64,000 nucleotides of DNA from Kribbibacterium absianum (lineage in GTDB: Bacteria > Actinomycetota > Coriobacteriia > Coriobacteriales > Atopobiaceae): contig NZ_JASJEX010000002.1 in the NCBI RefSeq assembly GCF_030067705.1, forward strand, positions 124,001-188,000. Direction: 5' to 3'. Positions 15,409 to 18,011 of the stretch are shown piece after piece. Made by a program: the position numbers and the translations under genes. Under the pieces are notes generated by a model. It saw nothing but the letters and a program-made list of their open reading frames with translations. It did no database searches and was not told the origin of the DNA. The stretch's first letter is position 1. Every line of letters begins with the position of its first letter.

Positions 15409-15466
15409 CCGCGTCATCCGCCTATGACTGCTAAGCCAAATTCAGACAACCGAAGAGGTGTGGCGC

Positions 15467-16840
15467 ATGAAGAGTCTGCTGCTTCTCGCCCTCGGTCTGG
15501 CCCGCACGGTCGTCCTGGGCGCGCGCATCGAGGCCGAGCGCATCGTCGTGAGCGTCCGGCCCTACAAGCGCGAGCAGCGCCGCTGCCCCGTATGCGGCAG
15601 GGCCTGCGACTTCTACGACATGGCGAACCGCGGGGCCCCCAGGCTGTGGAGGGCGATGGACCTGGCGCGCTCGGCCTGCTACCTGGAGTACGCGCCCTGC
15701 AGGGTGCGCTGCCCGGAGCACGGCGTGCGCACCGAGGCCGTCCCCTGGGCGCGGCACGGGGCGCGCTTCACGCGCGACTTCGAGGACTGGGTGGCGTGGC
15801 TGGCGGTCCGCTGCACCGCCCCGGCGGTCTCCGAGCTCGCCCGCGTCGAGTGGCACGGCGTGGGCGGCGTGTGCAGGCGCGTCTACGCCGAGCTGGAGGC
15901 CGCGCGCGGCGCCTCGAGGTTCGGCGGCGTGCGCCGCATCGGCATCGACGAGACGTCGTACAAGAAGGGCCACAAGTACGTCACGGTGGTCGTCGACCAC
16001 GACCGCGGCTGCCTCGTCTGGGCGCACGAGGGCACCGGCAAGGACGTGCTCAACCTGTTCCTCGACGAGCTCACGCGCGAGCAGAGGCGCGCCGTAGAGG
16101 TGGTGACCGCCGACGGCGCGAGGTGGATAAGGCAGCTGGTCAAGCGCCGCTGCCCCAACGCGAGGTGGGTCATGGACCCCTTCCACGTGGTCCAGTGGAT
16201 GAACGACGCGCTCGACGCCGTGCGCTGCGAGGAGTGGAACGCCGCCAGGGCCGCCGCCAGGGCCGCCAGGCCCAGGCCCGAGGGCAAGCGCGGCAGGCCT
16301 GCCAAAGGCGAGCTGCCGCCCGAGGAGGTCAGGGCGCTCGAGGAGGAGGCGGCCTCCATCAAGGGCAGCCGCTACGCGCTCGTGAAGAACCCCGAGGACC
16401 TCACCGACGGCCAGAGGGCGAGGCTCGAGGCGCTCAAGAAGAGGGCCGGCTCGCGGCTGGTCGGGGCCTGGGAGCTCAAGGAGGACCTGCGGGCCGTCTT
16501 CCGGGCAGCCGACGGCTCCGAGGCCGCCGAGCTGCTCGACGACTGGATGCACAGGGCCGCCTACTGCAAGATCGCCAAGGTCGTCGCCGTGGAGAAGAAG
16601 GTGCGCCGCCGGCGCGACGACATCATCGCCGCAGTCGAGCTCGGCATCAGCAACGGGCGCGTAGAGGCCATCAACAACAAGATCAAGGTGACGGTGAGGA
16701 TGGGCTACGGCTTCCGCAACACCGACAACCTCGTGGCCCTGCTCATGCTCAGGTGCGGCGACTGCCAGCCCCAGCTCCCGGGTCGCCCGGTGAAGGCGAG
16801 GAAGAAGGGCGTGAAGGGAGCGAAGAGCGTTGCCGCCTAG
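15467..16840 (+). CDS. ISL3-family transposase
   Basis: The 457-residue transposase begins with a zinc finger (RRCPVCGRACDFYDM...CRVRCPEHG). A helix-turn-helix part follows, then the DDE catalytic domain. The first Asp is in RIGIDETSYKKGHKY, the second in VTADGARWIRQLV / MDPFHVVQW, and the Glu is near the C-terminus in SNGRVEAINNKIKVTVRMGYGFRN, all family signatures. ATG 15467 follows GAAGAGG at eight bases. The gene appears intact. Its G+C-rich codon use matches the host, so the element probably circulates among related genomes. Confidence 0.93.
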   Translation: MKSLLLLALGLARTVVLGARIEAERIVVSVRPYKREQRRCPVCGRACDFYDMANRGAPRLWRAMDLARSACYLEYAPCRVRCPEHGVRTEAVPWARHGARFTRDFEDWVAWLAVRCTAPAVSELARVEWHGVGGVCRRVYAELEAARGASRFGGVRRIGIDETSYKKGHKYVTVVVDHDRGCLVWAHEGTGKDVLNLFLDELTREQRRAVEVVTADGARWIRQLVKRRCPNARWVMDPFHVVQWMNDALDAVRCEEWNAARAAARAARPRPEGKRGRPAKGELPPEEVRALEEEAASIKGSRYALVKNPEDLTDGQRARLEALKKRAGSRLVGAWELKEDLRAVFRAADGSEAAELLDDWMHRAAYCKIAKVVAVEKKVRRRRDDIIAAVELGISNGRVEAINNKIKVTVRMGYGFRNTDNLVALLMLRCGDCQPQLPGRPVKARKKGVKGAKSVAA

Positions 16841-16874: not shown

Positions 16875-16882
16875 GGAAAAAG
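16875..16882. repeat. Right 8-bp target-site duplication
   Basis: GGAAAAAG repeats 15301-15308. Its A-run is, on the minus strand, the T-run of the terminator at 16877-16905. Confidence 0.8.
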
Positions 16883-16905
16883 GCGCCCCGGGAAGAGCGC
16901 CTTTT
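16877..16905 (-). terminator. Rho-independent terminator of the candidate small RNA
   Basis: AAAAAGGCGC and GCGCCTTTT surround a ten-base loop. On the minus strand the stem is followed by TTTTTCC. It is the end of the structured region upstream and was the ISL3 target. Confidence 0.7.
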
Positions 16906-17090
16906 GACCGACGGCGGAGAGGGCCGTCCGGCCGAGTGGGCGCGCCCTGCGAGGAGAGGGCATGCGTGGAACTCGGGGCCGGTGCCTCGACGGGCCCCGA
17001 GCGCCTGCGACCATATCTGAGGAGAAGGGAGGTTGCAGGGCGCGCTGTTATCGGACTTGTACCAGCGGTGTCCCTTGTTATTTCACGGCG
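16877..17090 (-). ncRNA. Candidate structured small RNA, 6S-like architecture
   Basis: There is no gene in 16906-17164. The DNA folds as one long rod: an 11-bp closing stem (16940-16950 with 17035-17045, GCGCGCCCTGC), a large asymmetric and, on the minus strand, pyrimidine-rich internal loop, then a CATGCG/CGCCTG stem and a 9-bp CTCGGGGCC/GGCCCCGAG stem with a terminal loop. Outside, a GTCCG/CGGAC stem extends the helix. A terminator follows on the minus strand, and a TTGACG -35-like box lies upstream near 17115. Rod shape, central bubble and about 200-base length resemble 6S RNA, but I recognise no conserved sequence. Boundaries and strand are inferred. Confidence 0.42.
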
Positions 17091-17164: not shown

Positions 17165-17848
17165 CTAGTCCTCGACCTCTTCCGGCTGAGCCGCGGCGCG
17201 CTTGGACTTCATGCGCGCCTTGACCGCGGCGACGATCGCCGGCACCACCGAGACGGCCACGATGCCCACCACCACCAGCTCGAAGTGCTCCTGCACGGCG
17301 GGGATGGTGCCAAAGAAGTAGCCGAGCAGGGTGAAGAGGCTCGACCACACGATGCCGCCCAGCACGTTGAAGCCGAAGAAGTGGTGCCACCTCATGCCGC
17401 CCATGCCGGCGAGGAACGGCACGAAGGTGCGGATGAACGGGAAGAAGCGGCCGAGAAAGACCGAGAGGCCACCCCACTTGGCCATGAAGTTCTCGGACTC
17501 CTGGATGCGCTCGGGGGTGAGGGCGCGGATCTTGCCGCTGTCGACGATCCGGCGGCCCAAGAAGTGCCCGATCATGAAGTTGGACTGGTCGCCGAGAATC
17601 GCGGCCGCCCACACGCACAGGAGCAGCTCCCAGAGCGGCAGCACCTCGCCGGCCGCGCCGTGGCAGAGCACGCCGGCCGCGAAGAGCAGCGAGTCGCCCG
17701 GGAGGAAGGGCATCACGACGACGCCCGTCTCGATGAAGATCACAAGGAAGATGAGGCCCACAGCGACCATCGGGCCCTGGGCGATCCATCCCTGGATGAC
17801 GCCCATGGGGTCCTGGAGCAACGTGACAAGGAAGTTGATCAGATCCAT
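17165..17848 (-). CDS. DedA family membrane protein
   Basis: This 227-residue polytopic membrane protein has the DedA/SNARE-associated signatures FLPGDSLLFAAG and GRFFPFIRTFVPFLAGMGGM with the conserved Arg residues. Members act in envelope lipid (undecaprenyl phosphate or phosphatidylethanolamine) translocation or membrane homeostasis. The substrate here is not predictable. About five membrane segments are visible, and the C-terminus is charged. ATG 17848 follows GGAGG. It lies downstream of the SRP RNA gene and its terminator on the same strand, and upstream of the candidate small RNA. Confidence 0.9.
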   Translation of the reverse strand: MDLINFLVTLLQDPMGVIQGWIAQGPMVAVGLIFLVIFIETGVVVMPFLPGDSLLFAAGVLCHGAAGEVLPLWELLLCVWAAAILGDQSNFMIGHFLGRRIVDSGKIRALTPERIQESENFMAKWGGLSVFLGRFFPFIRTFVPFLAGMGGMRWHHFFGFNVLGGIVWSSLFTLLGYFFGTIPAVQEHFELVVVGIVAVSVVPAIVAAVKARMKSKRAAAQPEEVED

Positions 17849-17902: not shown

Positions 17903-18011
17903 GAGTGCGCTGGGCGGATGCGGGCGCCCGCCAGAGGCCCCTTATGGCTGCTACCTCCCGGTCCTGACCAGGTTCGGGACATGACGTCGCCCACACCCGC
18001 TCAACGCGCTC
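17903..18011 (-). ncRNA. ffs: Signal recognition particle RNA (4.5S, small bacterial type)
   Basis: The minus strand carries the universal SRP domain IV sequence CCTGGTCAGGACCGG, GGAGGTAGCAGCCA: a GGTCAGG-type loop, a GGAG tetraloop-like turn and AGCAGCC. Flanks pair to close the hairpin (GTGGGCG with CGCCCAGCGCAC). The RNA binds Ffh and targets membrane and secreted proteins to the translocon. Length about 109 bases fits the small Alu-less form. A TATACT -10 box lies at 18018-18023 and a terminator directly follows. Exact ends are estimated. Confidence 0.9.

Follow-up and report, generated by a model that had tools for sequence, protein, structure and literature searches.

6S RNA binds RNA polymerase and templates a product RNA, and some bacteria carry two 6S RNAs. 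Coriobacteriia are common gut and oral actinobacteria and, to our knowledge, their small RNAs are little described. Among small RNAs with C-rich loops, mycobacterial B11/6C pairs through these loops with ribosome-binding sites (PMC10470900). In PmaR of Agrobacterium, a long stem carries a C-rich loop that pairs with mRNA, and the action of this RNA is mostly positive and away from the Shine-Dalgarno site (PMC6234868).

Here we describe an RNA, probably real and uncatalogued, that lies before dnaX in a 64,000-nucleotide stretch of Kribbibacterium absianum DNA (the window; genome G000, contig C2, 124001-188000) and is very likely a free-standing structured small RNA. Its expression and function are inferred from sequence and predicted structure. 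A structured RNA fixed before dnaX in three genera offers a handle for testing post-transcriptional control in Coriobacteriia, and we document alongside it the order's 6S RNA, which mostly falls under the Rfam cut-off.

A structured RNA element between dedA and dnaX

On the minus strand, ffs is followed by dedA, the RNA element, an ISL3 transposase gene on the opposite strand, and dnaX. The surrounding genes are:

17908-18003, minus strand: ffs, near the RNA element
17165-17848, minus strand: dedA (Pfam VTT_dom)
15458..16840, plus strand: ISL3-family transposase gene (Pfam DDE_Tnp_ISL3, 6.1e-66), between the RNA and dnaX, given as context only

Among named genomes, the most similar dedA genes are those of Olsenella and other Atopobiaceae. 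Clear terminal inverted repeats could not be resolved at the ends of the insertion sequence that carries the transposase gene. The position of ffs agrees with a preliminary description of this DNA, which had noted a housekeeping RNA nearby and no gene between dedA and a terminator; we likewise found no minus-strand open reading frame of at least 60 aa between dedA and the terminator, and with none inside the element a protein-coding reading was dropped.

The small RNA is made up of P1 (17045-16940), then P2 (16933-16906), and finally a terminator hairpin (16905-16878) plus U tract, with the following features:

16876..17049, minus strand: proposed small RNA of about 174 nt (fold z -5.0; homologues before dnaX in G046, G022 and G020; match to model R3)
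17035..17045, minus strand: P1 closing helix, 5' arm GCGCGCCCUGC (sequence, fold, two-sided changes at 4 pairs)
16940..16950, minus strand: P1 closing helix, 3' arm GCAGGGCGCGC (sequence, fold, two-sided changes at 4 pairs)
17019..17032, minus strand: unpaired C/U-rich strand CCUCCCUUCUCCUC (alignment A5, fold)
16951..16960, minus strand: second C/U-rich strand CCCUCUCCUC, directly before the P1 3' arm (sequence, fold)
16906..16933, minus strand: P2 hairpin with loop CCUCUCC at 16922-16916 (fold; G046 and G020 have equivalent hairpins, also C/U-rich in the loop)
16877..16905, minus strand: intrinsic terminator hairpin AAAAGGCGCUCU-UCCC-GGGGCGCCUUUU with a U5 tract (fold; same terminator type in homologues)

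The 3' end was placed at the terminator and the 5' end was inferred; model R3, which was built partly from this same sequence, matches 16876-17049. The terminator was missing from the list of a simple terminator scan, probably because its A and U tracts pair. The preliminary description had seen one long rod of about 200 bases on the minus strand. The strand stands, but the RNA probably starts downstream of positions 17050-17090, and the fold places P1, P2, and the terminator hairpin in series. Within P1, the perfect 11-bp closing helix (arms 17045-17035 and 16950-16940) and the largely open, pyrimidine-rich interior that it surrounds are both as first described, and of the compound terminal stem an inner GC-rich stem is present in the window, but the same stem does not recur in homologues. 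The predicted fold of the 174-nt RNA has an energy of -87.7 kcal/mol versus -68.6 ± 3.8 kcal/mol in dinucleotide shuffles (z -5.0); the 214-nt span first proposed gave z -2.7.

A reading of the opposite strand as a CsrA sponge, with GGA in plus-strand loops, was rejected: no CsrA gene was found in the four genomes that carry the element, the plus-strand fold is weaker (z -1.6), and the U tract is on the minus side.

Homologues precede dnaX in three genera

When the window sequence was used to search the DNA of 100 relatives, no homologue was returned; homologues surfaced on inspection of the sequence flanking dedA and dnaX in relatives, in genus g23 (G046 and G022 = Olsenella sp. KGMB02461, L129) and genus g21 (G020). 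The dedA-dnaX interval of G046 and G022 holds GCGCGCGCCUGU...GCAGGCGCGCGC enclosing a C/U-rich interior, followed by a hairpin with loop CUCCCCUCUCUCU and a GGCGCC terminator. Before dnaX of G020 we found GGCGCGCC-U-CGCC...GGCGGGCGCGCC, then a hairpin in which CGGUCGU...ACGACCG closes a C/U-rich loop, and lastly a terminator; here the upstream gene is not dedA. Linkage to dedA was consequently dropped as an anchor, and the common anchor of the RNA is dnaX.

These sequences are much diverged, yet they retain the three-part plan directly before dnaX: P1, the C/U-rich strands, P2, and the terminator all recur on the same strand. The P2 stem sequences differ among genera, with a pyrimidine-rich loop in each, and folding z values are -5.0, -5.1, and -4.8 in the three genera. 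Local alignment scores were 84 for window-G020, 67 for window-G046, and 87 for G020-G046, while the background, taken from 4000 chunks, averaged 28 ± 7 and peaked at 67, so that the window-G046 similarity is weak by score alone and it is position and architecture that carry the homology.

The preliminary description had proposed looking for compensatory changes in the dedA-dnaX interval of relatives. P1 pairing is kept in all three genera, and both partners have changed in 4 of its 11 shared pairs in a hand-fitted alignment with N padding at indels, a fit that favours structure and covers three independent sequences. The two-sided changes vanish when the partner strand is slid, and we regard them as good, not overwhelming, evidence for the helix. 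Together with the three-genus homologues and the lack of a matching Rfam family, they bear out the earlier suggestion of a new or unannotated structured RNA.

We then assessed distribution with models of P1 (R1 and R2) and with a further model, R3, that spans the whole RNA and includes the pairs of both P1 and the terminator. R1-R3 gave clear matches in only four of the genomes searched, which numbered 140 for the family and 397 for the order; in the 397-genome search these four matched at E <= 1.3e-13 and the next match at 3e-6, although the models were built from these or near-identical sequences and their own scores are not independent. Weaker model matches beyond the four genomes were rejected as terminator-only or, among those inspected, as apparently unrelated, and weak BLAST matches in other Atopobiaceae look like chance, mostly in coding sequence. 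Diverged members outside the four genomes may escape the models, and the comparison suggests that the RNA is probably restricted to three related Atopobiaceae genera.

Most of the family thus lacks the element, and the RNA is predicted from sequence, not from expression, both of which would suit a non-functional, GC-rich intergenic stretch whose chance stems accompany the terminator of the dedA transcript. We consider this highly improbable given the conserved architecture with compensatory changes and the z values of about -5 in three genera. Moreover, the G020 element precedes dnaX without dedA, and is therefore not simply dedA's terminator.

Elsewhere, loci L246 (G320) and L249 (G319) of genus g99 have in common what is possibly another small RNA, an intergenic element in which a GGAACCG hairpin and a GGAGCCC-type terminator are accompanied by pyrimidine-rich linkers.

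Promoter elements and the relation to dnaX

The position of the RNA just before dnaX in three genera raises the alternative of a cis-acting dnaX leader or attenuator, in which a long folded leader would precede dnaX and its terminator would set how much transcription continues into the gene. In every case, however, a -10-like element (TATACT, TAGAAT, or TACAAT) separates the terminator from dnaX, and most relatives without the RNA also have a TATACT-type element there. These motifs suggest a separate promoter for dnaX. In the window, the opposite-strand ISL3 transposase gene additionally breaks the continuity between RNA and dnaX, and no alternative antiterminator fold was noticed among predicted folds, which were inspected unsystematically. 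The apparent separate dnaX promoter and the intervening transposase gene together make a leader unlikely, and we judge this explanation improbable, though it may yet hold in the other genera.

A promoter scan found no consensus promoter for the RNA. One weak candidate lies immediately upstream:

17050..17065, minus strand: possible promoter region with -10-like TACAAG (weak; upstream comparison, TATAAG at equal distance in G020)

A promoter belonging to the RNA itself is thus only hinted at, by TACAAG and TATAAG in two genera.

The RNA is distinct from the 6S RNA of the order

Because the preliminary description had likened the element to 6S RNA and proposed a covariance-model comparison, we examined its relation to Rfam. 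No family of Rfam 15 matches the RNA, and the 6S model (RF00013) gives no match in the element even at E <= 10. A separate RF00013 match is present in the same genome at C4:90136-90307 (L003:1501-1672; 35.1 bits, E 1.5e-5, below the 46.4 cut-off), and 6S-type matches, one each, occur in 46 of 60 genomes. The 15 aligned members have long invariant stretches, and in 14 of 36 predicted pairs both partners have been replaced in one or more of the sequences. Judged by these alignments, the order's 6S is a different, conserved RNA.

The 6S of this genome and of nearly all its relatives in the order misses the Rfam cut-off despite strong conservation and covariation, and the Rfam 6S model seems poorly tuned to Coriobacteriia.

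With no RF00013 match and a separate 6S in the genome, 6S identity was rejected, although the separate copy is not decisive by itself, as some bacteria have two. The window RNA does have the length of a 6S RNA, and its closing stem is long and its interior open, as would fit a second 6S RNA binding RNA polymerase. Against this reading, which we consider the least probable of all, stand the lack of a covariance-model match, the absence of a conserved terminal stem, the additional P2, and the presence of a separate 6S here and throughout the order. The 6S-like shape first noted thus reduces to a closing stem and an open bubble.

Putative pairing through C/U-rich loops

We next considered what the open strands might do. 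Just past the P1 5' arm by a few bases, CUUCUCCU (17027-17020) is invariant across the three genera (alignment A5) and is complementary to AGGAGAAG. In predicted folds of the RNAs of the three genera, the mean unpaired probability is 0.48-0.59 for pyrimidines versus 0.23 for purines. Unpaired CUCC/CCUC bases exceeded those of shuffles in 200/200 comparisons for the window and 197/200 for G046; in G020 the excess was not significant (159/200). By unpaired probabilities and folds, exposed C-rich single strands are predicted to be held by stable stems in all three genera.

As the unpaired probability of pyrimidines is at least double that of purines and CUUCUCCU is invariant, a trans-acting pairing small RNA is the simplest reading. 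The P1 and P2 stems would present single-stranded CUCC/CCUC-rich stretches, which could base-pair in trans with purine-rich mRNA sites; the simplest targets would be Shine-Dalgarno regions, where CUUCUCCU complements AGGAGAAG, and pairing would block or modulate translation, as with the C-rich loops of mycobacterial 6C/B11. We give even odds to pairing of the C/U-rich loops with mRNA as the mode of action, and regard the composite proposal, a lineage-specific free-standing small RNA before dnaX whose exposed C/U-rich loops pair with purine-rich sites in mRNA, as evenly poised.

Target searches yielded no particular mRNA. A pattern search for exact complements gave nothing convincing, its matches falling mostly in lysine/glutamate-rich coding sequence; one match lies ahead of a possible start codon (L233). 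Within the window, loops matched gene upstream regions at 6 nt or more in 10/38 cases and reversed loops in 13/38. This outcome would suit a structured RNA, likewise free-standing, in which the open C/U-rich strands bind a protein or have a role other than mRNA pairing, a reading that the structural evidence fits equally well. No particular protein is indicated, however, and the actinobacterial C-rich loops of proven function pair with mRNA (PMC10470900), and we hold such an action to be unlikely, if the most credible of the alternatives to pairing.

A hairpin of CCGCGCCCCGG/CCGGGGCGCGG with loop CUCCCUUCCUCCC was also noted near position 1500 of L126 (G145), before an apparent transporter permease gene. 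A complementary purine stretch, GAAGGGAGAAGGAAGG, is just downstream, and this is possibly a separate cis-acting element.

Comparison with known C-rich-loop RNAs

The best Rfam look-alike is ar14 of alphaproteobacteria (RF02344), in which hairpins with CUCC-rich loops are likewise followed by a terminator, but the match is at chance level (17.2 bits, E 0.41, where the gathering score is 58.8). 6C/B11 (RF01066) is also a free-standing small RNA with stems presenting C-rich single-stranded loops, for which ribosome-binding-site pairing is proposed. Its covariance model found no match at E <= 0.001 in G000 and 39 relatives, with a Corynebacterium control genome matched, and 6C identity was rejected for these 40 genomes of the group. 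Whereas 6C has two loops with runs of about six or more C, the window RNA has mixed C/U strands and no C6 run. At about 174 nt versus 75 model positions it is also longer, and its P1 is long and its interior open.

PmaR has a similar outline, a spoon shape in which a long stem closes a single-stranded loop with C-rich regions (PMC6234868). The organisms are unrelated, the window RNA adds a second C/U-loop hairpin, and the likeness drawn here is one of shape. The window RNA is likely one of a broad kind of C/U-rich-loop small RNAs and not a member of 6C. More tentatively, and with the balance somewhat against it, it may represent an undescribed Atopobiaceae family exerting broad translation control through several Shine-Dalgarno-complementary C/U-rich strands that a long closing helix keeps open; no 6C is detectable in this group.
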